Shown: positions 44,797 through 61,653, counted from the stretch's first letter. The stretch: 64,000 nucleotides of DNA from Echinicola marina (GCF_020463795.1 NZ_CP080025.1:4089501-4153500); one strand, 5' to 3'. Made by a program: numbers and translations. Notes: generated by a model from the sequence alone, not told the origin.

Positions 44797-45931
44797 AGTT
44801 ATTAAGGTCTTTGTAGAGGGTGTTGGAATGCTTGGTCTAATGTCTTTTTAGATATTAGACACAAGACGCTAGATTAAAGACTGGAGCACGGAGGCGAGAA
44901 CGTCCAATTCTCCGTCATTGCGAGTAAGAGGGTATTGAGTTTATCGAAATGCCCTCTTACGCGGCAATCTCCTATTGATTGTCATGCTGACGAAAGGAAG
45001 CATCTCTTCCAGTAACATCCTTCCAGTCTAGTCCGATTTGACAGATGTAATTCGGCCTCGCAAACGGACACAAGTCTCAATACTCACGACTCAATACTAG
45101 CTACTACTTTTCCTTCTACATTTATAAGAAATTGATTAAATCCCAGTGCTTATAAAGCCCCAGGCCAGGCTGCCCTACCAGACGTTCTTTCCGGAGCGGA
45201 ACGAATGCAGCCAACGAATTTTGTAGTCTTGAGTAGCAAGTCATGAGTCATGAGCTCAATTGTTCTAACTACTCCATTTCGTAAAAATTGATACCGATTT
45301 TAGGTTTGATAGAGTTATAGGAAATTCGGTATCGGTATGTGATTCATATTCAGTAGCAAGTAATTAGTATAGCTTCCGTGAACAAAAGCTCCAGACTCCC
45401 TACTCAATACTAAGTACTAATTTTATATTGGGTTTTTCGGCTTGCGTATAAATAGCATATCGAACTGTGTACAGCTGTTTGGGCTACTTAGACAACTTGG
45501 ATTAAAAATACAGGCAGCTGAACCTTCTCTTCTAAAAGAGGGCCATAAAGGATCATAATATGTAAATGATGTACTGCCCATAATATCTATTTATCATTAT
45601 GAGCCTCGAAAAGTGGGGATAGGACTATAGCTTGGGCCTATCTCAACCACATCACAAGGTTCCGACGCCTTAGGGATAGTATCGATAGAGCCCAAGAGCT
45701 ATAGAGTATACGAATGTACACAAAATATCCCCTTGGGCATTAATCTATCGTCTCTCCCTATTACAAAATTGTCGGAATTTGTGATCGAGACTCTTCGATT
45801 AATACCATTTTGGTAAATCTCAAAAACATCAAGTTAAAAATAACCTGACATTTCAAATATAAATATTTAAGTACATTAAAAAAATATTTTGATATAAAAT
45901 GTACTAGAAAATATCACTGCTTTTGTTCATT
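44797..45931. other. 1.1-kb non-coding repeat-rich stretch upstream of the TlpA/SusC operon
   Basis: No gene is supported. It includes a REP-like element (44913-44971), the ACAAGACGCTAGAT word (44861-44874) and repeated low-complexity words such as CTCAATACTA and TACTAAGTACTAA near 45078-45105 and 45405-45420. The minus-strand operon promoter should lie near 44800-44850. Confidence 0.5.
44913..44971. repeat. REP-like element
   Basis: CGTCATTGCGA...GTAAGAGGG...CCCTCTTAC...GGCAATCTC. The inner GTAAGAGGG/CCCTCTTAC pair forms a 9-bp stem. Confidence 0.65.
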
Positions 45932-46486
45932 ATGAGCAAAATAGATATAGAAAGAGCAGAGTTAATTTCAAAAAACTTACAATTAATAATGGATAAGTCT
46001 GATCTTACTGTTGATGGACTAGAGGAATATACTGGTATCTCAAAACCAACTTTAAATAGAGCTATATTGAAAACCTCTAATTTATCCCCAAATAAGGTTA
46101 ATGATCTTGCAAAAGCTTTTCACCTAGATTCAAAAGAAGTAACCAGCAAATTCCCTGTAAGGACTAGGCACCTTACGAGAATGGACGAACTCATAGACTT
46201 CAAAAATAAAAATTTAGAAAACTTTAAGTATTTCATTTCGGAATCTCAAAAGCATAACGCACATGCATTTGTAAAGAGCGAGTTATTTAAAGACCCCTAT
46301 TACAAGGAAGAGAGAAAGATGAAAGAAATCAAAAATAGGCTTAGAAAAAGTAAAAATTATCAAGATGAATTTTCTGATAACGCTATAGAACAAGCTATAA
46401 AAAGGTTGGTAATAGACTGTGATTTTTTTATAATAAATAGAAAGAGCCCAAAAGGAAAGGTTTTCTATTATAAAGTAAAAGGATAA
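45932..46486 (+). CDS. XRE-like HTH regulator
   Basis: 184 aa from ATG 45932 (MSKIDIERAELISKN); a TTG at 45923 could add three residues. Residues ~18-70 look like an HTH domain (DLTVDGLEEYTGISKPTLNRAILKTSNLSPNKVNDLAKAF), followed by a basic helical region. An IS21 element now lies 54 nt beyond its stop. Its original terminator survives on the other side of the element. Target unknown. Confidence 0.65.
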   Translation: MSKIDIERAELISKNLQLIMDKSDLTVDGLEEYTGISKPTLNRAILKTSNLSPNKVNDLAKAFHLDSKEVTSKFPVRTRHLTRMDELIDFKNKNLENFKYFISESQKHNAHAFVKSELFKDPYYKEERKMKEIKNRLRKSKNYQDEFSDNAIEQAIKRLVIDCDFFIINRKSPKGKVFYYKVKG

Positions 46487-46630
46487 AATCTAAAGTCTCT
46501 AGTGGATTTAAACCTTCAAATTTCTTAAATTAAGGAAGCCTGTATATTCCGATGATCTTGACCACCAATCCGGTCATCCTGACCACCCTTTCAATTAGGG
46601 TTTTCAGTTACCGTTTGGAGGCTGTTAAAG

Positions 46631-47356
46631 TTATTGTTTTTTTCTCATTGATTCTCCTTTTAGCTCGATTCTGTGTGCGGTGTGCACCAGTCTGTCGAGA
46701 ACAGCGTCGGCTATGGTACTGTCACCTATGGTTTCGAACCATTTTGTAACCGGAAGTTGTGATACCACTATTGTTGAAGCCCTTCCATGGCGGTCTTCTA
46801 TGATTTCAAGCAGGGCCATTCTTGCCATTTCATCCAGTTGCTGAATGCCGAAGTCATCCAGGATCAATAAATCCTGTTTTTCTATTCTCGCTATCTCTTT
46901 GATATATGAGCCGTCAGCTTTCAGCATTTTGAGTTTCGGGAACAGCTTGGTGGTATTATAATATTGGGTTCTGACCCCTTGCATACAGGCTTGGTTTCCC
47001 AGGGCCGAAGCAATGTAGCTTTTGCCGGCCCCTGTTGCTCCTGTGATCAGTATGTTTTCTTTTCGTTTAATAAAGGACATATCAGCAAGTCTGAGGACCT
47101 GCATTTTATCCAGCCCCCGGTTTGGAGAGAACTCAAGCTCTTCAACAGTGGCACTGTACCTGAACTTTGCCGTTTTGTACAGTCTGTTGATTTTCCTGTT
47201 CTCTCTTTCTTCCCATTCTGCCTGCAAGAGATGGTTTATAAGCTCTTCGGGATTGAGATCATGATGTTTGTTGCTGTCCAGAATGGTTTTGTATGCTTCC
47301 ATCATTCCGTGAAACTTCATTTTGGACATCTGGTTCAATGCGATGCTCTGTGTCAT
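46631..47356 (-). CDS. istB: IS21 helper ATPase IstB
   Basis: 241 aa AAA+ ATPase with Walker A GATGAGKS, Walker B LLILDDFG and a sensor-like VVSQLPV segment, as in IstB of IS21 elements. It helps the IstA transposase select targets. It follows istA with a 29-nt gap on the minus strand. Confidence 0.93.
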   Translation of the reverse strand: MTQSIALNQMSKMKFHGMMEAYKTILDSNKHHDLNPEELINHLLQAEWEERENRKINRLYKTAKFRYSATVEELEFSPNRGLDKMQVLRLADMSFIKRKENILITGATGAGKSYIASALGNQACMQGVRTQYYNTTKLFPKLKMLKADGSYIKEIARIEKQDLLILDDFGIQQLDEMARMALLEIIEDRHGRASTIVVSQLPVTKWFETIGDSTIADAVLDRLVHTAHRIELKGESMRKKQ

Positions 47357-47385
47357 AATTGTGTGATCGGTTATATGTTTGATAA

Positions 47386-48933
47386 TTACCTGAAGCTTTC
47401 CGCTCCCCTTATGTTTTCGTGGTCAACTGATTTATCGGACTTGTTTTCAGTATCTAAAGGGATTGAATCCATCCCGCTGTTGAGTATTCTGGTGATGACC
47501 GAATAATTATAAGTGTTGTAGTGTTTGGCACGTATTACTGCGTTTATGAGCCTTTCCCTGCCTGCCTTTTTATCATATCCCAAAATCCCCAGACAGCTTT
47601 TATAGGCCTGTTCCGGATACGGGTAACTGTCGAGGATAACCTGTAAATAATGCCGGACTTCAGGATGTATCCCTTTTGCCCAGTTCAGGAAGAATTCAGG
47701 GTTCCAGTCACTTACAAACCTGTGGGCTGAAGGCATATGGTCCTGGACCGTAGTGTATCCGCGCTCCTTAAGGCTTCTTTTATGAAAAGCGATCCTTTCC
47801 CCATCGTAGAAAACAGAAACGTAACTGGCTGAGTACACAACCTTGACTTTTTTGCCGATATACCTGTAGGGAATAGAATAATAATGGTTTTCAGGGTTCA
47901 GGGATATGTGGGAGGTTTTAGTGACGGTGGCATACTTGAACTGTTTGAGTTCATATCTTTCGGCAGGCAGGGGGGCCAGGGTTCCCTTTTCTTCCCTGTC
48001 GAAAAGCTCCTTCCTTGTTTCCGGTCTTTTCTGGAAAGGGGTATTGTTATGGATATTGAGGTAGTGCCGTATATCCGCATTCAGTGTATTGATGTCATGG
48101 TAAACTTTGTTTCTGAGCGGGGCGTATATCCTGCTGTAGACAATGCTGACGGTCTTTTCCACCAAGGCCTTGTCCTGCGGCTTCCTGCTCCTTGCCGGAA
48201 AGACCACACAGCCGTAATGGTTGGCAAAGTCCAGGAAATCGGGGTTGATGGCCGGTTCATACTTGTCGGCTTTGGTGACCGCGCTTTTGAGGTTGTCGGG
48301 CACCAGGGCCCTGGGAACACCGCCCAGGTAATGTAAAGCATTTTCAGTGGCTGCTATGAAGTCTTCTTTTCTTTGGGAGGGAATGGCTTCTACATAGCTG
48401 TATTGACTGGCTCCGAGTGTGGCAACATACACTTCCAGATCAGTGAGTTCACCTGTTACAGGATCTACTATGGACAGCCTATCACCCGTAAAGTCTATAT
48501 AGAATTTATCTCCCGGAACATGTTCAATTCTCATACTGGCAGATAGACCGGTACGCCACTGCCTGAAGCTTTCACAGAACTGTGAGTAACTGTATCCGTC
48601 AGGATGTTTTTGTCTGTATTCTCCCCACAGGACCCAACGGTTCACACCGGTCCGTTTAAGCTCCGGTTCCATATAGGGAAAAAAAGATATAAGCTCCTGG
48701 TACCGCTCCCCTGAAACATGGTCCGGATCAGAAAGTAGGGCATCAAGCTCTTCGTCATTCATGGACAAAAGCTCTCCGTAAGAAAAACCTTTGGAATCAA
48801 TCAGCTGAAGGTACTTCTTGACCGTGTTCCGGGCAATTCCCAAGGTTTTGGAGATGGTCTGCAGTGCCATTCCGTTGTCACGGTGGCGAATTATCTGTTT
48901 GAGATTACTCATGGTTATCGTTTTTCCTGCCAT
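47386..48933 (-). CDS. istA: IS21 transposase IstA
   Basis: 515 aa. The N-terminal HTH (MSNLKQIIRHRDNGMALQTISKTLGIARNTVKKYLQ) is followed by a DDE integrase core (FYIDFTGDRL and a later LVPDNLKSAV) typical of IstA. The reading frame is intact and paired with istB, so the element is probably active or recently so. Confidence 0.93.
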   Translation of the reverse strand: MAGKTITMSNLKQIIRHRDNGMALQTISKTLGIARNTVKKYLQLIDSKGFSYGELLSMNDEELDALLSDPDHVSGERYQELISFFPYMEPELKRTGVNRWVLWGEYRQKHPDGYSYSQFCESFRQWRTGLSASMRIEHVPGDKFYIDFTGDRLSIVDPVTGELTDLEVYVATLGASQYSYVEAIPSQRKEDFIAATENALHYLGGVPRALVPDNLKSAVTKADKYEPAINPDFLDFANHYGCVVFPARSRKPQDKALVEKTVSIVYSRIYAPLRNKVYHDINTLNADIRHYLNIHNNTPFQKRPETRKELFDREEKGTLAPLPAERYELKQFKYATVTKTSHISLNPENHYYSIPYRYIGKKVKVVYSASYVSVFYDGERIAFHKRSLKERGYTTVQDHMPSAHRFVSDWNPEFFLNWAKGIHPEVRHYLQVILDSYPYPEQAYKSCLGILGYDKKAGRERLINAVIRAKHYNTYNYSVITRILNSGMDSIPLDTENKSDKSVDHENIRGAESFR

Positions 48934-49183
48934 GCTTTACGGTTGGTTTTAAATCAACCGTAAAGGAAACGATAACTGAAAAATTAAAGGTGGTCAATAA
49001 TGTCATTCTGGCCATTCTGACCACTTAAAGTGGTGGTCAACATGGCCGGATTGACAGTGGTCAATATCACCGGAATTTTACCCTTCGACAAAAGTTGATA
49101 CCCAGAAGGGGGGTGGTCAACATCATCGGAAAAAAGTGGTCAGCATCACTGGAACAGGTGGTCAACATGAATCGGAATATACA

Positions 49184-49210
49184 AAGCCCTCCGATTGGAG
49201 GGCTTTTTTA
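49184..49210 (+). terminator. Terminator restored beside the IS21 element
   Basis: AAGCCCTCC (49184-49192) pairs with GGAGGGCTT (49197-49205) around a GATT loop and is followed by T's. Its first five bases are the right copy of the IS21 target duplication. So the element inserted into the left arm of a terminator that originally ended the HTH gene. Confidence 0.8.
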
Positions 49211-49557
49211 TTTGATTTTGGTGCAAAATACTGTAATTGGGGTATTTGTTGGGAATAGGGAGTTTTTTAGTTTTGATGGATAATTTCAATTTTAAATATT
49301 TACAAATAATTGGAAAACATTTGTATTTGGATAATTGGCTATCGTTTAGTTTGCAGGATTTATTTTGTAAAACATGTTTATTAGAAATATGTGCAATGCA
49401 TATATACGCTAATTACTCTACGATAATAGTGAGTATAATAAAGGACAGAATTTGTTAGCCAACCGGACATTCAAACACATATATATGTTTGCCAAAGTTC
49501 GCACGCTATTGCTTCGCAAGTAGAAGAGCCTGAATTTGAGCTAATATAAAATGAAAC
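49211..49557 (+). other. 347-nt AT-rich stretch before the RT-nitrilase gene
   Basis: No protein gene is supported. Near its right end CAAACA...TGTTTG forms a 6-bp inverted repeat around 49472-49491, and TTGC-TTC-GCAA forms a small hairpin near 49512. A promoter or a structured RNA for the downstream RT could be here, but nothing specific was recognised. Confidence 0.4.
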
Positions 49558-52500
49558 ATGGAATTTACTAAGGAAGATATTAAAAATGCTTATATCAAGC
49601 TGAAATCATACATTTATTATGATAATACCGACTTACTACTCAGGCGGCAGTTGGTCGAATTTGAAACAAGTATTGGAAAAGACTTTCTATTTAAAAATCC
49701 GAGTTCACACTACAATGTAGGTGGAGACATGTTTTCCTATAAAATTAAATTTACACTTGAAGAAAAATTCGAAAGAATAGCCCATGAATTGAATTCCTTC
49801 CATACGGACTCAGAATTTATTAATTCTTTACTATCAAAGGTTAGCATAAATTTTTACCCAAAAAAAATAAAAACACCAGAACCAGAAGTCAATTTCATAA
49901 CAAATGTTAGGATTCAAGAAAAATACGAAATAGAAAGAGTCACTCCTTTTATAAATGCTCCAATAGAGTTACATATTTTTTCAGTTTTATGGATAATGAA
50001 GCATGGTGTAACTTTAGATGCGAATTTGAAAGACGAATGTTTAGGCAACCGTCTATTGCTGAACAAAGATAAAACTGAAATTGTACGAGGTTCAGGTTTA
50101 TTCAAGCCCTACTTTAATCAATACCAAAAATGGCGTGATGATGCTGTTGAAACAGCAGAAAACCTAATTAAGAAAGGGAAAAATGTAGCTTTCATTAATT
50201 TAGATATTAAAGACTATTTCAGCTCCGTCCGAATAAATCGAACAGACTTATTTAATAGAAGAACACATGATATTTTAAATGAATCCTATAACCTGCAAGA
50301 GATATTTCTTCGTATTCATGATAATTATTCTGCACAACTAGCAAATAAATTTCAAAGCCCAACTAACTTTTATTCTGAATTAACTGACAATGAAGGGAAT
50401 TTACAAAGAATTGTATTACCAATTGGACTAGTGTCTTCATATGTTCTCGCGAACTCGTATTTAAAGGAGTTTGATAATCGAATAATCAATTTTATTAAAC
50501 CTGCATACTATGGCAGATATGTAGATGATATGCTTTTTGTTATATCCGACCCCAAGCCTAATGTTAAAATAAATGAAAGTAGTGAAAGGCTAAAATTTGA
50601 TATTTCAAATTACAAGGATCTTCAACCTACAAAAATCGAAAAATTTGTTCTTGAGACTTTTTACCCAATTATCGATCTAAAAAAAGCACCAACATCAAAT
50701 ATTAAAAAGGAGAATGACTTTATTCTTGTCGATTTCGAATCTCTGTATTGCCAAAGCGAGAAGTCATTAGTCCATTATTTTGATGCTAACGAATCTCACC
50801 TTGTTATTGATAGATTAAAACAGGAACTTGATGAAAGGACAAGTGAATTCAGAGATTTTCCAGAAGAAGATGAAAACAACTTGTCTTTTAAATCTAGTGC
50901 TTACCACCTTCATTATGATGGCACAGAAGGAAAAATCCGAACATTGAAAGACTATAAAGAAAATAGGTTTGGATTAACTGTCTTTCTTTCTAATAAAATA
51001 TTTAGTGCTCTCCGTCATGAAAATCATTTATCTGATGAAGAATGTGACCAAATTGTAAACTTTTTTAAAGGTGAAACGTGCCTAACATTTTATAGACTTT
51101 GGGAAAGAATCTTAACTTTATTGCTAGTAAATCAAAAACCAAAACACTATGTCGAATTCTTTTTACATTGTTTTGATGAAATAGAAAAAATTGAACACAA
51201 GAAAAAGTCATCAAAAGTTCAAGAAGCGGACATAAAAGACACTCTTGTCAATTACCTTGATACTTCCCATGAATTATCACTTTCGCTAAACCTTGATTTT
51301 TTAATTAAAACCAAAAAAGTAGCTCGAAACTTTGAGTTTAAACTTAATCATCTAAATAATAGTAATTGGTCTTTTCTATTTGGCAGGTTCGAGCCGACAA
51401 GGACTGATTCTCATTGGGTGAGAAGGTTTCGAGTGTCTAACATGATGCGACACCATTATGTCATACACCCACTATTGACCTATAGTGAAGCTTGTAAGAA
51501 GGGAAGCTTAAAAAACTTAACCAGCATTAACATTGACTTTAAAAACTACAAGCTTGATAAGACCTTAATTGAAGAATCTCCAAGAAGAGTGAAGTTTTGG
51601 GAATGCTGTATGTCAACAGCTTTTGAGTCAATTGGTTCACACAGTAACAAGAAAGAAGTAGAAATCAATAACAAAGTAGAAACAGACATCTTTGGGGTTA
51701 TAACTAGTAAAAAATCAAAAAGTGATAATTTTTACTTAGATGATGCATTTTCTAGGTACAAAGCAATAAACCAGAATCATATTCCATCATATGAATTGGA
51801 TGAAAATGGTCTAAGAGATAGCTTTTACAAAAGAAAAAATACTATTAAAAAGAACAGCCCTATTGTAAATGCCCAGGAAATTATTGTAGGAGAGAATAGA
51901 AGAAGTTCAAAAAAATTTAAAATCGCCTTTGCAAATACTAAAGTAGAAGATGTCAATATAGTAGCAAGTATGCGTGGAACTCCTAATCTAAGCTCGCTGC
52001 GATATGATAAACTTGCCAAAATCGTAAAGAAGGTTAGACTTGACAAAAGTGATGTTCTATTATTTCCAGAATTCTTCATCCCAATAAACTTACTTTCTAG
52101 TTTAGTTAAATATTCAGAGAAAAATCATGTTTTGACAATTACAGGTCTTGAACATGTTAAAATTAAGAACACTGTATTTAATCTTATTGTAACAATTCTT
52201 CCATTTGAAGTAAATGGAGTTAAGGATGCTGTAGTAGTATTTAGACTGAAAAATCACTATGCTCATGTTGAAGACTCCTTGATAAGGGGAAATCATCTAA
52301 AAGTAGCATCTCCTAGAGAACACAGGTATGATATTTTTAATTGGGAGAATTTATACTTCTGTCCATATTACTGTTTTGAATTAGCAAATGTATGGCATAG
52401 GAGCCTTTTTAAAAGCAAGCTCGATTTGTTGGTAGGTGTTGAATGGAATAAAGATACTAACTATTTTTCAAATATTGTGGAGTCATGTTCACGAGATTTA

Positions 52501-52767
52501 CACTGCTATATTGCACAAGTTAATACAAGCCAATTTGGTGATTCTAGATTGACACAACCCGTTGAGTCTGCCAGACTCGATATATTAAAATTAAAGGGAG
52601 GGATCAATGACTCTATACTTGTTTCAGAAATTGACTTGGATACAATAAGAGAATTTCAGCGAAAAACTTTTGATATAACTCACCCACAGAAGGAGTTTAA
52701 GCCTTTACCTCCTGACTATAATATAGGAGACGTATTAAAAAGGATAAATAATGAACCAATTTTGTAA
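49558..52767 (+). CDS. Reverse transcriptase-nitrilase fusion (DRT type 1-like)
   Basis: 1069 aa. The N-terminal half is a reverse transcriptase: motif A INLDIKDYF (Asp216), motif B-like QRIVLPIGLVSSYVLAN, and the YVDD box (321-324). The C-terminal region (about 815-1060) has nitrilase-like features: Glu838 in LLFPEFF, Lys898 in FRLKNHYAH and Cys939 in YYCFELAN, an apparent Glu-Lys-Cys triad. RT-nitrilase fusions are known as unknown-group (UG) RTs that defend against phage, DRT type 1. Codon use is AT-rich, unlike the SusCD region. A zinc-ribbon gene follows 79 nt later. Confidence 0.88.
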   Translation: MEFTKEDIKNAYIKLKSYIYYDNTDLLLRRQLVEFETSIGKDFLFKNPSSHYNVGGDMFSYKIKFTLEEKFERIAHELNSFHTDSEFINSLLSKVSINFYPKKIKTPEPEVNFITNVRIQEKYEIERVTPFINAPIELHIFSVLWIMKHGVTLDANLKDECLGNRLLLNKDKTEIVRGSGLFKPYFNQYQKWRDDAVETAENLIKKGKNVAFINLDIKDYFSSVRINRTDLFNRRTHDILNESYNLQEIFLRIHDNYSAQLANKFQSPTNFYSELTDNEGNLQRIVLPIGLVSSYVLANSYLKEFDNRIINFIKPAYYGRYVDDMLFVISDPKPNVKINESSERLKFDISNYKDLQPTKIEKFVLETFYPIIDLKKAPTSNIKKENDFILVDFESLYCQSEKSLVHYFDANESHLVIDRLKQELDERTSEFRDFPEEDENNLSFKSSAYHLHYDGTEGKIRTLKDYKENRFGLTVFLSNKIFSALRHENHLSDEECDQIVNFFKGETCLTFYRLWERILTLLLVNQKPKHYVEFFLHCFDEIEKIEHKKKSSKVQEADIKDTLVNYLDTSHELSLSLNLDFLIKTKKVARNFEFKLNHLNNSNWSFLFGRFEPTRTDSHWVRRFRVSNMMRHHYVIHPLLTYSEACKKGSLKNLTSINIDFKNYKLDKTLIEESPRRVKFWECCMSTAFESIGSHSNKKEVEINNKVETDIFGVITSKKSKSDNFYLDDAFSRYKAINQNHIPSYELDENGLRDSFYKRKNTIKKNSPIVNAQEIIVGENRRSSKKFKIAFANTKVEDVNIVASMRGTPNLSSLRYDKLAKIVKKVRLDKSDVLLFPEFFIPINLLSSLVKYSEKNHVLTITGLEHVKIKNTVFNLIVTILPFEVNGVKDAVVVFRLKNHYAHVEDSLIRGNHLKVASPREHRYDIFNWENLYFCPYYCFELANVWHRSLFKSKLDLLVGVEWNKDTNYFSNIVESCSRDLHCYIAQVNTSQFGDSRLTQPVESARLDILKLKGGINDSILVSEIDLDTIREFQRKTFDITHPQKEFKPLPPDYNIGDVLKRINNEPIL

Positions 52768-52846
52768 TAGCCATGCACATTCCCTTTTTAACTGGCTAAG
52801 AAAAGGCTAAAGCAATTGAACAGTTTTTGATTCTAACAATTTAGAG

Positions 52847-53929
52847 ATGAGACCATATCTATCCATACAAGAAGACGAGGAAGTATTTATCCCTAAGAAG
52901 TATCATAAAATAAATGATCTTTGCGCTATAATTTATGACCAACTAACTGAAATATACAGGGAAGATAATTATGTTGAACTTAACAGCACTACAATAGACT
53001 TAGACAATGCGGACGAAAAACTGAAGTCACTGGATAAAGAAGGTAAGCATATACTTGATTGGTTAAAGGAAAATAATAGAAATGATGAAATCGAAACAGT
53101 TTTATTGAAACATTTGACCATGGCAATCACATCAGATTTTATCAACTTTTTGTTCGAATCACTGTATACAGCAAAGAGAGGTAAAATGACAGTAGCTTAT
53201 TCTCTGATAAGAAAGCCATATAGCGACATACTTCTAATTCTAGAACAGTTATTTGTGAATAAATCCGAATTTATCGAACGTTTCTTTCATATTGGTGATC
53301 CAAAAGGATACGATCCAAGCAATAGAGCTATTAATCGACTAGATATCATTGAACAAGCACTTTCCAAAATTAGGATAAGCGACCTTTTAAATGCTGAACA
53401 TATTCATGATTTAAGATATGATAAGGAGTTGGATTATGGATTAAACGGAATCACAAATCATGCCTTGCATATCGTAACTAACGATAAAAGATATAAAACC
53501 GAAAATCAAAATTTGAATTTCGTATTTTCTAATGAGGAGGATATGGAAAGATATTATGAACACTATTACAATTTTGTCCCATATTTATTAATCTATAGTG
53601 TTTCTGTAGTAGATGGAATTATCTTCGATCTTCTAAAGGATCCTTATAACCAAAAATTACGTGTAGTTAAAGAGTTCAGGCGTTTGATAGCTCTTATTAT
53701 GCTGATGGAGTACACAGGTATTCGGACGAAGAAATCTAATAAACGGATATTCAAAGCAATAGCTGACGCCATTAGTATCGAGTGTATTATCTGTGAAAAT
53801 GTAAATAAAATAGAACGGGCCGACTGTGAACTTTTTTTAGAAACAGAACTACTTCTTTGTTCCAAATGCGGTAACAATATTTTATCAACTAATGAGGCTG
53901 TAGACGCAATCGAACAAATACTTAAATGA
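52847..53929 (+). CDS. Hypothetical helical protein with C-terminal zinc ribbon
   Basis: 360 aa, mainly helical (e.g. LLEQLFVNKSEFIERFF, NRLDIIEQALSKIR). Near the end, CIICEN and CSKCGN (two CxxC pairs separated by about 26 residues) suggest a zinc ribbon. It starts 79 nt after the RT-nitrilase on the same strand, with similar base composition, so it could be an accessory. No known family is recognised. Confidence 0.6.
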   Translation: MRPYLSIQEDEEVFIPKKYHKINDLCAIIYDQLTEIYREDNYVELNSTTIDLDNADEKLKSLDKEGKHILDWLKENNRNDEIETVLLKHLTMAITSDFINFLFESLYTAKRGKMTVAYSLIRKPYSDILLILEQLFVNKSEFIERFFHIGDPKGYDPSNRAINRLDIIEQALSKIRISDLLNAEHIHDLRYDKELDYGLNGITNHALHIVTNDKRYKTENQNLNFVFSNEEDMERYYEHYYNFVPYLLIYSVSVVDGIIFDLLKDPYNQKLRVVKEFRRLIALIMLMEYTGIRTKKSNKRIFKAIADAISIECIICENVNKIERADCELFLETELLLCSKCGNNILSTNEAVDAIEQILK

Positions 53930-54235: not shown

Positions 54236-54686
54236 TCATTCCTCAATTGCCCACCAATTTATGATTTTATTCTTTCCTATCACCTTTTCAATCAAAGTCA
54301 CTAACCAATAACACTCTGTTATAATAGAGTAGTGAATGGAGTAAGGTATATTTTTTTCAAACTGAAAGTATTCTCCACTCAAGCAATATCTACCAATTAA
54401 TCTAAGAATCAAACTGGCAATATCTTGTAGCAATACAACATCGTCCCAAAAATTATTTAGATCATATGTGTGGGAAAGATGTTCATTATGTGCTATATAT
54501 TTATCCCTAATGATCTTCAAATCATCTATTTTTCTTCTTATTTCTTTATTATTCAAAATAAGTTTAAAATAGTTGAGTAAACTACGGATATCAGTAACTT
54601 CATTCAATGAGTGTTCAATGCGAGACTGTAATCTAAACTCTGTCTGAGACTTTGAAAATCAATTAAAGTTTATAAGATAGAGAGAT

Positions 54687-55916
54687 ATGAGCGAAGAACA
54701 AGAATCAGCATTTAAGAAGAAAGTACTTGACCAGTTTTTATCAGGAGAGTCCCTGTTCGGCAAGAACGGTGCGCTGTCTCCGATGTTGAAGGAGTTTTTG
54801 GAGGAAGCCCTCCAGGCTGAGATGGACGAGCACCTTCGGGATGAAGATGCAGGCCACAGTGCAGGCAACAAACGTAACGGCAAGGGCAGCAAGCGTGTGA
54901 AGAGCAACTTGGGAGAAGTGGAGATCGAGACGCCCCAGGACCGTCACAGCAGCTTTGAACCTAAGATCGTCGAGAAGCGCCAGCGTATCCTTGCCGATAA
55001 CCTTGAGAAGCAGATCATAGGGATGTACTGGCTTGGCAGTAGCTTACGTGACATCTCCGGGTACATCAAGGAAATGTACGATACGGAGGTCTCCACGCAG
55101 GTGATAAGCGATATTACCGACCGTGTCGTCCCGAAAGTCAAGGAGTGGCAGAACAGGCCGTTGGAAGAGGTCTATTGCATTGTATGGCTTGATGCCATGC
55201 ACTTCAAGGTACGTGAGGAAGGAAAGGTACGCCATAAGGCCCTATACAATGTATTAGGGATCAACCGTGAGGGGAAGAAGGAGGTACTGGGCATGTACCT
55301 TTCCGAAAGCGAGGGGGCGAACTTCTGGCTACAGGTACTCAGCGATCTACAGCACCGTGGAGTACAGGATATCCTGATCGCCTGTACCGATAACCTTAAG
55401 GGCTTTCCCGAGGCGATCGGGTCGATTTTCCCGAAAACAGAGATCCAGCTCTGCGTGGTCCACCAGATCCGGAACAGCCTGAAGTACGTGGCCAGCAAAA
55501 ACCAAAAGGAGTTTGCCGGTGACCTGAAGAAGATCTATAAGGCCGAGACAAAGGACCTGGCCGAATCGGCATTGTTGGAACTGGAAGAAAAGTGGGGGAA
55601 GAAATACCCCATAGTGATCCGTTCCTGGAACGACAACTGGGAGAGGCTGAGTGCCTTCTTTGCCTATACACCGCCCATCAGGAAGCTGATCTATACCACC
55701 AATGCGGTGGAAGGCTTCCATCGGCAGGTAAGAAAGGTGACCAAGACCAAAGGGGCATTTACCAGTGACATGGCACTTCTAAAGCTGGTCTATCTGGCCA
55801 CGCAGCGGATCGAGAAAAAATGGACGACCCCTTTACAGAACTGGAGCTTGACAGTCCAGCAGCTGGCCATTAAATTTGAGGGGAGGCTCCGGTTGGACAT
55901 CAATACGGAAACCTAA
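54687..55916 (+). CDS. IS256-family (mutator-type) transposase
   Basis: 409 aa, intact. The sequence has the mutator-type DDE core: IVWLDAMHFKVREEGKVRHKALYNVLGI, DILIACTDNLKGFPEAI and the late FHRQVRKVTKTKGAF. N-terminal residues include QAEMDEHLRDEDAGHS and GNKRNGKGSKRVK. It is the only gene of the element. A perfect hairpin follows its stop. Confidence 0.95.
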   Translation: MSEEQESAFKKKVLDQFLSGESLFGKNGALSPMLKEFLEEALQAEMDEHLRDEDAGHSAGNKRNGKGSKRVKSNLGEVEIETPQDRHSSFEPKIVEKRQRILADNLEKQIIGMYWLGSSLRDISGYIKEMYDTEVSTQVISDITDRVVPKVKEWQNRPLEEVYCIVWLDAMHFKVREEGKVRHKALYNVLGINREGKKEVLGMYLSESEGANFWLQVLSDLQHRGVQDILIACTDNLKGFPEAIGSIFPKTEIQLCVVHQIRNSLKYVASKNQKEFAGDLKKIYKAETKDLAESALLELEEKWGKKYPIVIRSWNDNWERLSAFFAYTPPIRKLIYTTNAVEGFHRQVRKVTKTKGAFTSDMALLKLVYLATQRIEKKWTTPLQNWSLTVQQLAIKFEGRLRLDINTET

Positions 55917-55935
55917 TCATTTAGTGAGGAATTTT

Positions 55936-55969
55936 TTCCCTTCCCGGGGGCTAGCCCCCGGGAAGGGAA
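55936..55969 (+). terminator. Perfect hairpin at the right end of the IS256 element
   Basis: TTCCCTTCCCGGGGG (55936-55950) and CCCCCGGGAAGGGAA (55955-55969) form a 15-bp perfect stem around CTAG. It lies between the transposase stop and the right terminal repeat and would stop transcription out of the element. Confidence 0.75.
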
Positions 55970-56348
55970 AGGACAGAGTTTAGCTAACACTCCCTTCAAT
56001 GCCTGTAATTTCAACGAGCTGTGTAATTTGATCATCAAATGTTAAATGAACTCGTTCATCTTTCCGGTGACAAAAGTCCATTTCCAAAAGTGTCTCCAAA
56101 CACCTTACTTGATATTTATTATTTCTATTCTTCCTATCGTAGAATTTGCAAAGACTAATAATGCAAAGTTCATGGGATGAATTTTGTAGATAACTTAAAA
56201 TTTTGGCATTATCCTCATCCTTAAATTCATTTATTAGATAAGCATGTTCTCCGATTGTTCTAAAGATAAAATAATGTCGAATACTAAAAAAAAGATCATT
56301 TGCAAGTCCCTCTTGGAAGAATTTCTCAAGCTCTTCGTGTGATTTCAT

Positions 56349-56790: not shown

Positions 56791-57639
56791 TTAGGTTAAA
56801 TTCTCAATATCAAATAAAACCCGATTTAGCCTTTGCTCTAAATTCTTACGATCTTCTTCATCATCCATTAAATCTGCACTAATTCCAATTAGATTTTTTG
56901 CTTGAGGATCTGCCAATTCTATAATGTTATTTATTAAATCTGTTTCTAGCTCTTTATTAAAATGAGAATATTCAACCAAAATTAACAAGCTTATCAAAAC
57001 TGAATTAAATGCGGCTTGAAGCACAGCAGAACCATCAAACATTGTATATGAATTATGGTCTTTTGTTCTATAATTTCCAGAAGAAATAAAATTTATGTGA
57101 ACATGCTCAGAAAGATGTCGATAAAGTTTATCAAAAATTAAAGAATCTTCTTTTATTAGATTGCTAAATGCCATTTGTCGAATAGTTATCCCATAATTAA
57201 AGACTTCCTTTGTATTGGTATCGCATACCTTATTTCTTTGAGGCTTGCCTTTACTATTTAATGGATGCATATAGTCTCCAGAAACTAATCCTAGCTTAAA
57301 GTCCAGAAATTGATTTAAAGATTCAGGAACATTTCTTACAAATGACATATGCAGATAGGCTTCATAAGCTGTCCTTAGAACTGTTTGAGAATCTTCTTGG
57401 AGGAAATTAGCTACTAGGCATTCTGCTGCATGCAAAGTTTTGCTAGCTTTGACTAGACAAAAATGGTAGAAGTCGCTTTGCTTATTTTCAAATGATTTTC
57501 GATTGTACTTGAAGACTTTAACTACTCCATATTTATCGCAAATATCAAGTAATAATTGATTGTTTGCTCTTAAAATTGTGAGCATGAATTCAAGTTGATT
57601 TTCGGGACTTAAATTGTGAAATTCATGTTTTGAAGTCAT
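56791..57639 (-). CDS. Hypothetical helical protein (DUF5677-like)
   Basis: 282 aa, all helical. The segments VLRTAYEAYLHMSFVRN and LYRHLSEHVHINF resemble DUF5677 proteins, small helical bundles often found near phage defence and toxin genes. The RTAYEAYLH block and the HxH near residue 192 are the most conserved-looking parts. The assignment is tentative; another HEPN-related family is possible. Confidence 0.5.
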   Translation of the reverse strand: MTSKHEFHNLSPENQLEFMLTILRANNQLLLDICDKYGVVKVFKYNRKSFENKQSDFYHFCLVKASKTLHAAECLVANFLQEDSQTVLRTAYEAYLHMSFVRNVPESLNQFLDFKLGLVSGDYMHPLNSKGKPQRNKVCDTNTKEVFNYGITIRQMAFSNLIKEDSLIFDKLYRHLSEHVHINFISSGNYRTKDHNSYTMFDGSAVLQAAFNSVLISLLILVEYSHFNKELETDLINNIIELADPQAKNLIGISADLMDDEEDRKNLEQRLNRVLFDIENLT

Positions 57640-59039: not shown

Positions 59040-59109
59040 GAAATAGAAAGCAGATTAAAATTAATACTCAATTGACATCAGTTATTAGATTTTGATTTAC
59101 TTAATAATT

Positions 59110-61653
59110 ATGAAAGGCCATTTTTCTATTTCTAAAATACCTAAATCTAATATTCTCTTTAATTTACTAATATTAGGATTTGCAATAATCTTTCGTAACC
59201 CCCTTTCCGAATTTATTAATTGGCTTTTGGTGGATACTGTTTTTTCAAAAGTTGAAAGCGATTTAGTTAATGATTTGGCTGTGTTAAGTATTTCATTGAT
59301 TATTTCATATGTAATTACAAAAAAACTCAAAAGTACAGTGATATCATTCCGCTTAGCCTTGATATCCTTTTTGGTTTATGTTTGGACATTGTTTACAGGG
59401 GATTGGTCGTTTACAATTTTTAGTTTTGTTAGTTGGTTAAGGTACTTTGATGTTCTTATACTATCTGTGATCCTATCTTATTTTTATTTGGAGTTTAGAA
59501 AAAATAGGGATAATGATGGTAGTTTGAAGAATAAATCGCCTTCTTTTTCAAAAGGTTTTGTTGAAGACAATCCAATTTTAGATATATCAAATGATTCTTT
59601 TAACAGAATATCTTTAGCGGAAGAAATTTCCAATTTAATAACCTTAACAGAGAACCAAAAATCTTTTGCAATAGGTGTTAATGGCCCTTATGGAAGTGGA
59701 AAGACCTCATTTCTAAACCTATTATCAATTGAAATTAAAAAAGCCTCATCCGAAAATGTTGCCGTAATCAATTTTAATCCATGGGATGTTGATTCAGCGG
59801 AAGAAATACAACGAATGTTTTTCGATGAATTAATAGAAAGATTGTCCTCGATTGATCCTAACTTTTCATCTCTTTTGTATTCCTACTCTAGAAAAGTAAT
59901 AAAATCTGATTCTTCACTGTCAGGTCCTTTGGGTAGGGTAAATCTTCTTTCCCACTTTTTCCTGAGTGAGCCGATCGATGACAGAAAAAAGGTTGATGAA
60001 TGTCTAGAAAGTTGGGATAGAAAAGTAATTATATTTATTGATGATGTTGATAGGCTTCATAGTGATGAGATAAAAGAAGTTTTAAGATTGATAAGGAATA
60101 CGGCTAATTTTCGAAATTTCTTCTATGTGGTAGCTTATGATAGAAATTATGTGATAAACTCTCTTAAGGAATTTAATACAAAAGGTTATTTGACCTATCT
60201 AGAGAAAATATTCCAGTTGGAAATACCCTTGCCAAAATTAGAAGAAGTTCAATTATTTTCCCTTTTAAAAGAGGATTTAGAAATGGTATTGGATGACGAG
60301 GATTTTATTGAATTTCAGGAAAAAATATTTCCTAAATATTTTGAATCTGATTATGATAAAAATTTAAAAGGGGTGTTCAATTCCCCCAGAGATGTTATTA
60401 GATTTATTAATTCAGTCTTAGTAACCTATCACAAGATCAAGAAAGAAGTTTTGTTTAAAGATTATTTTTTGAATGAGTTGTTGAAATTCAAATATCCAAT
60501 GATACATGATATGATCTATGATTATTCAGAAAGTTACTTGGTAAAAAGACCATATAATATACTTAACAAAACCAGGTATATTTTGGCCAGAAAGGAAGAG
60601 AAAGCAGAGTGGAGCAAAATTATTGAACGTGTTCGTTCTGAAAATGAAGATCAATTTAGCTTAACTAGTTTAATCACCGTCGAGTATATACTGAGCGAAC
60701 TATATCCAAACGTTTTTGATGCAAATAGAAAAGGGAATGAATCTATAAATAATCCTCAATTTTTTCCACTATATTATAGATACAACCTTAATTCTTATAC
60801 ATTATCCGAATATAGTTTCAAGCATGAAATCAAAAATTATAACGGTTCATTTTTCAAATATATTGATGAGTGTTTTGACAAGGGGTTAGAAAGAGAATTA
60901 ATGCTGAGGATTTTTGATGAAAAGGTTCCTACAAATAGGGCCGACTTTATAAAACACTTGCACTATTTGTTTAAAATAGGTTCCAAATTTTCCTCAATTC
61001 ATGGTACTACATCATTTTACTATGGAGAATTGATTAGAATTCTAGAAGATATTAGTGGGGATACTGTTAAAAAAGTCTTTCAGGGTAATAAGGGCAAATA
61101 TTTAAAATTTGTACAAGCCTTTTTTAAAGAAGCAAGGCAATATTCTCCCTTTTTTGTAAATCAGTTAATCTTTGAAATAAAGAGAAAGGGTGTAGTTGAA
61201 AAGATTGGAACTGAGGAGTTCTTTACAAATATTCAGTTAAATTATTTCAGGGATTTGATTACTTCAAATCATCAGCTCAGTGAGGATGTTGTCTGGCTTT
61301 TCTGGGGATTAAGAAATTTTGAATTATCTGAGGAATCAGATAAAAAGCAAATTTTTGGTGTATTTGTACCTGAAGCCGTTAATATACTATTAAAAAATAT
61401 AGACCAATGTGATCTGACCTACTTTTTGAAAAGTATTATTGAAAGAAGTTTAAGGGAAGAAGAGGAATATAGAATTACAGATATAGCTTTTGAAGATATT
61501 TTTGGGAACCCAATGGATCTGCAGGAAATTGTCGAAAGGAATGGACTTACAGATAAGTCAGTTAAGGATGAATTTTTAAGTTTCTTTAAAAAGTATGAAT
61601 CAAACAAGTTCAGGCCTGTAGAATACAACTTTCAAACAATTTTAAAAAAGTAA
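59110..61653 (+). CDS. KAP-family P-loop NTPase with N-terminal membrane region
   Basis: About 847 aa from ATG 59110 (MKGHFSISK); a TTG at 59092 could add six residues. The first ~130 residues contain four hydrophobic helices. Then comes the NTPase: Walker A GPYGSGKTS (Lys198), Walker B IIFIDDVDRL (Asp311-Asp312) and an arginine-rich FNSPRDVIRFINSV segment. This layout is typical of KAP (Kidins220/ARMS-PifA) NTPases, some of which, such as F-plasmid PifA, exclude phages. It lies in a defence-like neighbourhood. The C-terminal ~450 residues are novel to me. Confidence 0.8.
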   Translation: MKGHFSISKIPKSNILFNLLILGFAIIFRNPLSEFINWLLVDTVFSKVESDLVNDLAVLSISLIISYVITKKLKSTVISFRLALISFLVYVWTLFTGDWSFTIFSFVSWLRYFDVLILSVILSYFYLEFRKNRDNDGSLKNKSPSFSKGFVEDNPILDISNDSFNRISLAEEISNLITLTENQKSFAIGVNGPYGSGKTSFLNLLSIEIKKASSENVAVINFNPWDVDSAEEIQRMFFDELIERLSSIDPNFSSLLYSYSRKVIKSDSSLSGPLGRVNLLSHFFLSEPIDDRKKVDECLESWDRKVIIFIDDVDRLHSDEIKEVLRLIRNTANFRNFFYVVAYDRNYVINSLKEFNTKGYLTYLEKIFQLEIPLPKLEEVQLFSLLKEDLEMVLDDEDFIEFQEKIFPKYFESDYDKNLKGVFNSPRDVIRFINSVLVTYHKIKKEVLFKDYFLNELLKFKYPMIHDMIYDYSESYLVKRPYNILNKTRYILARKEEKAEWSKIIERVRSENEDQFSLTSLITVEYILSELYPNVFDANRKGNESINNPQFFPLYYRYNLNSYTLSEYSFKHEIKNYNGSFFKYIDECFDKGLERELMLRIFDEKVPTNRADFIKHLHYLFKIGSKFSSIHGTTSFYYGELIRILEDISGDTVKKVFQGNKGKYLKFVQAFFKEARQYSPFFVNQLIFEIKRKGVVEKIGTEEFFTNIQLNYFRDLITSNHQLSEDVVWLFWGLRNFELSEESDKKQIFGVFVPEAVNILLKNIDQCDLTYFLKSIIERSLREEEEYRITDIAFEDIFGNPMDLQEIVERNGLTDKSVKDEFLSFFKKYESNKFRPVEYNFQTILKK

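Follow-up and report, generated by a model that had tools for sequence, protein, structure and literature searches.

We found that the 64,000-nucleotide stretch of Echinicola marina DNA analyzed here (the window; GCF_020463795.1, NZ_CP080025.1:4089501-4153500) carries a further copy of a known type of bacterial anti-phage gene. Its product, a 1069-aa fusion of a reverse transcriptase (RT) and a nitrilase encoded at 49558-52767 (+), is, as placed by profile scores, a UG5-nitrilase (the "large UG5" or "UG5 large" of the class 3 UG/Abi RTs). The overall explanation that we favor, and that we consider probable as a joint claim, is that this is a stand-alone defense gene that was acquired horizontally and would act through self-primed DNA synthesis and a nitrilase held inactive until phage infection. 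A first-pass annotation of the same DNA had recognized an RT-nitrilase defense gene of a known kind and had placed this open reading frame (ORF) and the following one (52847-53929) exactly where we find them; the two novelties that it proposed, an accessory gene downstream and an RNA template upstream, do not hold. The outcome is mainly a correction, in that UG5 is not to be merged with DRT1 and the proposed new DRT accessory is not one.

The RT palm and fingers span residues 198-334 (50149-50559, +), as delimited by Pfam RVT_1 (7e-8) and by invariant columns, and contain D216 (codon 50203-50205) and the YVDD motif at residues 321-324 (codons 50518-50529). The nitrilase domain covers residues 818-1054 (52009-52719, +) and was identified by the PADLOC model RTasNitrilase (3.9e-29). 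Across 10 aligned UG5 proteins, with identities down to 20%, the RT residues D216 and Y321-V322-D323-D324 and the nitrilase residues E838, K898, C939 and E905 are all invariant. The RT motif positions and the intact triad of Glu838, Lys898 and Cys939 had been read correctly in the first-pass annotation, and to these the alignment adds E905 as the likely fourth nitrilase residue. An AlphaFold2 model of the protein built from five sequences reached a mean pLDDT of 31.5 and was discarded. The gene is present as a single copy in the 5.69-Mb genome.

Orthologues of the window protein were found in Allomuricauda (L002, 81% identity), in a Chlorobiota MAG (L003, 76%) and in a Chlorobiaceae MAG (L004, 84%), while the remaining UG5 relatives are ~20-45% identical to it (weak partial matches in L036 and L037 were excluded). 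Since the gene was not found in sampled genomes of the family and order to which the host belongs, the presence of such close orthologues in Allomuricauda and Chlorobiota indicates, from sequence comparison, gain by horizontal transfer. A scan of viral contigs with the RT returned no relatives. UG5-nitrilase relatives repeatedly sit among defense genes, with type I restriction-modification genes adjoining them in L034 and L043 and AbiE genes in L020 and L034. Two other arrangements were observed among these relatives: at L035:1-13379 (-), the UG5-nitrilase is flanked by PglX-like and PglZ genes, as though placed into a BREX-type operon, and at L033:1735-14431 (-), a split UG5-nitrilase abuts a MukB/MksE-like gene set with an adjacent ResIII-type helicase. 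A transmembrane partner gene (RTasTM) overlaps the RT gene in Photobacterium (L005) and was found in that locus only; in the window, PADLOC gave no RTasTM match for either the 360-aa gene downstream or the helix-turn-helix (HTH) gene upstream. Because L002 and others also have no such partner, the transmembrane gene appears to be optional for UG5-nitrilases.

The surrounding locus is an AT-rich, defense-like region with IS21 and IS256 insertions. The IS21 element (istA, istB) occupies 46541-49183 (-) and was recognized by its inverted ends (TGTATATTCCGAT/ATCGGAATATACA), its flanks and IS21 families, with a 5-bp target duplication AAGCC. It sits in the terminator stem behind an HTH gene (45923-46486), which it parts from the RT-nitrilase; the terminator at 49183-49206 is that of the gene to the left of the IS21 insertion. 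The IS256 element (54622-55994, +), recognized by its inverted repeats, flanks and IS256 transposase and bounded by an 8-bp target duplication (TTCAATGC), splits an AbiU2-like HEPN gene into halves at 54236-54607 (-) and 55980-56348 (-). A DUF5677 protein is encoded near the broken HEPN gene at 56791-57639 (-). Further along, still in AT-rich sequence, 59092-61653 (+) encodes an 853-aa PifA/QatA-like KAP NTPase (185 bits to PifA), which is likely a defense gene as judged from its sequence.

With one insertion element upstream and another within the neighboring HEPN-like gene, the RT-nitrilase could itself be part of a decaying mobile-island remnant that presently has no function. We consider this improbable, as its ORF is uninterrupted across all 1069 codons and every catalytic residue has been kept. 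The IS21 insertion also bears on our preferred reading of a stand-alone defense gene, and counts against it, in that the RT-nitrilase was thereby parted from its original upstream neighbor; the UG5 system tested in the literature, moreover, had a transmembrane gene. As neither gene beside the window RT-nitrilase matches RTasTM, a partner may lie elsewhere or the window system may work differently.

The gene that follows (52847-53929, +) encodes a 360-aa, mostly helical protein with a C-terminal zinc ribbon. It starts 79 nt past the RT-nitrilase on the same strand, no terminator-like site was found between the two, and their GC contents are 0.31 and 0.32. The CxxC pairs noted earlier near its end are present as C313, C316, C338 and C341 (53783-53869, +), and both pairs are invariant in our alignment A3, as well as among those members of alignment A1 that are full-length. 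The protein belongs to an orphan family; searched against Pfam, NCBIfam, PADLOC and PHROGs, it matched no family with an E-value of 0.01 or less. Its predicted model (pLDDT 75) is mostly helical plus the ribbon and matches nothing in the PDB at E <= 0.001 (the best hit having E 1.2), so its function is not readable from the fold; we also considered a remote relationship to HEPN proteins, which could not be demonstrated.

Eight relatives of the 360-aa protein were compared: four from Cytophagales (L027, L028, L029 and L030; 41-44% identity), one from a Pontibacter plasmid (L018), which has no zinc ribbon, and three from IMG/VR (L044-L046). The neighborhoods of L028 and L029 are near-identical and were counted as a single event. 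The IMG/VR members are distant relatives in viral contigs (L044:4983-6044, L045:4031-5101 and L046:4977-6059), the last of them with a P-loop NTPase gene next after it. Outside these eight, relatives also occur on Vibrio parahaemolyticus plasmids from shrimp, which may be virulence plasmids; the Pontibacter plasmid took their place in the comparison.

The first-pass annotation had suggested that this gene could be a new accessory of the RT-nitrilase. The two proteins would then form a two-gene system, in which the 360-aa protein might, for example, act as a sensor or effector under the control of RT-DNA assembly. Their spacing, shared strand, similarly low GC content and the lack of a terminator-like site between them would fit such a system, as would the occurrence of the 360-aa family near Abi and toxin-antitoxin genes on the Pontibacter plasmid and in phage contigs. 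Its linkage to other RT-nitrilases, which had been proposed as the check on this idea, was examined in both directions and neither gave support. None of the eight relatives lies near an RT, and no relative was found at any of nine further UG5 loci for which 5 kb or more of sequence is available downstream (L002, L005, L019, L020, L032, L033, L034, L035 and L043), among them the 81% orthologue. Across all fetched loci, profile searches recovered the two families together solely in the window, and the Cytophagales copies lie in ordinary chromosomal settings, e.g., beside metal-efflux genes. With the downstream gene thus not linked to RT-nitrilase genes elsewhere, we regard a two-gene system as very unlikely and judge the 360-aa gene, on these comparisons, to be an island neighbor outside the system. 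On the simplest reading, it is a passenger of the island and has a role of its own, which may be defensive.

It had also been stated that RT-nitrilase fusions define DRT type 1. The nitrilase fusion occurs in UG1 (DRT1) and in UG5 alike (unknown classes 1 and 5; PMC8934634), and the two are treated as separate groups (PMC8934634, PMC9122126). The PADLOC UG5-nitrilase profile PDLC03780 matches the window protein over residues 2-1057 with 789 bits (1.8e-237), while the Drt1a (UG1) profile gives a partial match of 77 bits, about ten-fold less in bits. When the UG5 family profile was compared with solved structures, the best match was DRT1 (PDB 9YFD, 1.2e-25), which matched in its RT part as well as its nitrilase part and ranked ahead of Drt3a, retrons and Drt2. 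Taken together, the profile scores and DRT1 as nearest solved structure make the window protein a UG5-nitrilase and a relative of DRT1, not DRT1 itself. Of the earlier reading, the anti-phage UG/Abi RT-nitrilase with intact catalytic residues therefore stands and the type 1 label falls. A true DRT type 1 system with a mode of action identical to that of DRT1 could draw on the shared domain order and on 9YFD being the best solved relative. Identity with UG1 was rejected at the family level by the score difference, a drt1b-type transmembrane gene is absent beside the window RT-nitrilase, and we hold this alternative to be extremely unlikely.

The weakest alternative is that a non-coding RNA encoded in the 347-nt stretch ahead of the RT gene (49211-49557, +) acts as the template for the RT, in the manner of class 2 DRTs (DRT2, DRT9) or retrons; although the gap holds no convincing gene, the probability of this is close to negligible, given that nothing past ~30 nt is conserved against L002, L003 and L004 (the genes themselves being 72-83% identical in DNA), that the stretch folds no better than shuffles (z = -0.05), that it has no Rfam match at gathering score (sub-threshold matches fall mostly on the terminator), and that DNA synthesis by DRT5L and DRT5S is template-free and tolerates RNase A (PMC13275509). 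The earlier proposal of an upstream RNA template for the window RT is accordingly unlikely and this region unsupported as a feature.

For the stand-alone UG5-nitrilase, a mechanism can be outlined from DRT1, in which self-primed DNA on S402 leads to tetramers and filaments, a C-terminal tail shuts the pocket of the nitrilase, and phage-infected cells undergo abortive infection that depends on the nitrilase (PMC13275509). If the window protein is analogous to DRT1 and purified DRT5L in this, its RT domain would put non-templated DNA on a hydroxyl of its own chain. The DNA adduct would, as in DRT1, promote assembly into nitrilase tetramers or filaments, which a C-terminal lid would keep inactive. 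A phage trigger might then free the nitrilase to attack an essential small molecule or make a toxic one, and the cell would halt ahead of phage release. On the strength of this analogy, we infer that the window RT-nitrilase may act by abortive infection.

The alignments point to residues that could serve these steps. In the linker past the RT, the segment S429-E430-F-R432-D-F-P435 (50842-50862, +) contains S429, E430 and R432, which do not vary among 13 UG5 proteins. No Ser, Thr or Tyr other than S429 is invariant past the RT domain; S142, Y185, Y318 and Y321, the remaining invariant hydroxyl residues, lie before or within it. It is possible, and we put it forward tentatively, that S429 in its S-E-x-R context is the self-priming residue of large UG5 proteins and that priming on a serine just past the RT is common to DRT1 and UG5. 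The DRT1 priming serine S402 is reported not to be conserved in other class 3 DRTs (PMC13275509); the DRT1 and UG5 linkers have no significant alignment, and the profile alignment stops short of S402, with S429 at a similar place. The S-E-x-R motif could instead be a structural element. No UG5 priming site is reported in PMC13275509, PMC9122126 or PMC8934634. At the C-terminus, K1048-P-L-P1051 (52699-52710, +) is a candidate counterpart of the DRT1 active-site lid (PMC13275509): K1048, P1049 and P1051 are invariant in 10 UG5 proteins, the essential lid residues of DRT1 are also C-terminal, and by that analogy K1048-P-x-P1051 may form the nitrilase lid in UG5. The alignment thereby offers concrete residues in UG5 for priming (S429, E430 and R432) and for the lid (K1048, P1049 and P1051), and S429, if it is the priming residue, would allow UG5 chemistry to be tested at one position.

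Four known systems can be compared with the window protein. The PADLOC combination of RT_UG5_small and RTasNitrilase is homologous to it in the RT and nitrilase parts; these are separate models for RT and nitrilase, whereas the window protein is a single fusion. RT and nitrilase are also found as two ORFs in the L033 and L034 relatives, where the split falls at differing points of the helical region (L033:7836-11167, -; L034:7882-11074, +) and could reflect fission or a frameshift. One tested system is that of P4-like satellites, in which a UG5 RT-nitrilase with one transmembrane gene protects E. coli from phage (Rousset et al. 2022, PMC9122126). Its authors likened it to type-I DRT though its RT clade differs, and it shares with the window protein the RT group UG5 and the C-terminal nitrilase. 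It differs in its transmembrane partner, which neither gene flanking the window RT-nitrilase matches; a UG5 relative on an E. coli plasmid, which may or may not be the tested allele, is only ~23% identical to the window protein.

DRT5L and DRT5S, which we take to be the large and small UG5, are class 3 UG/Abi RTs like the window protein. When purified, they carry out protein-primed DNA synthesis that needs no template and proceeds with RNase A present (Neville et al. 2026, PMC13275509), and the main text of that study names no priming residue for either. DRT1 belongs to a different RT group (UG1, 9YFD), and its linker around S402 has no significant alignment to that of UG5, yet it shares with the window protein the order of RT, helical repeat and nitrilase, a serine past the RT and a lysine-containing C-terminal tail. 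Template-free synthesis is common to DRT1, DRT5S and DRT5L (PMC13275509), and a biochemistry held in common by DRT1 and UG5 is likely.
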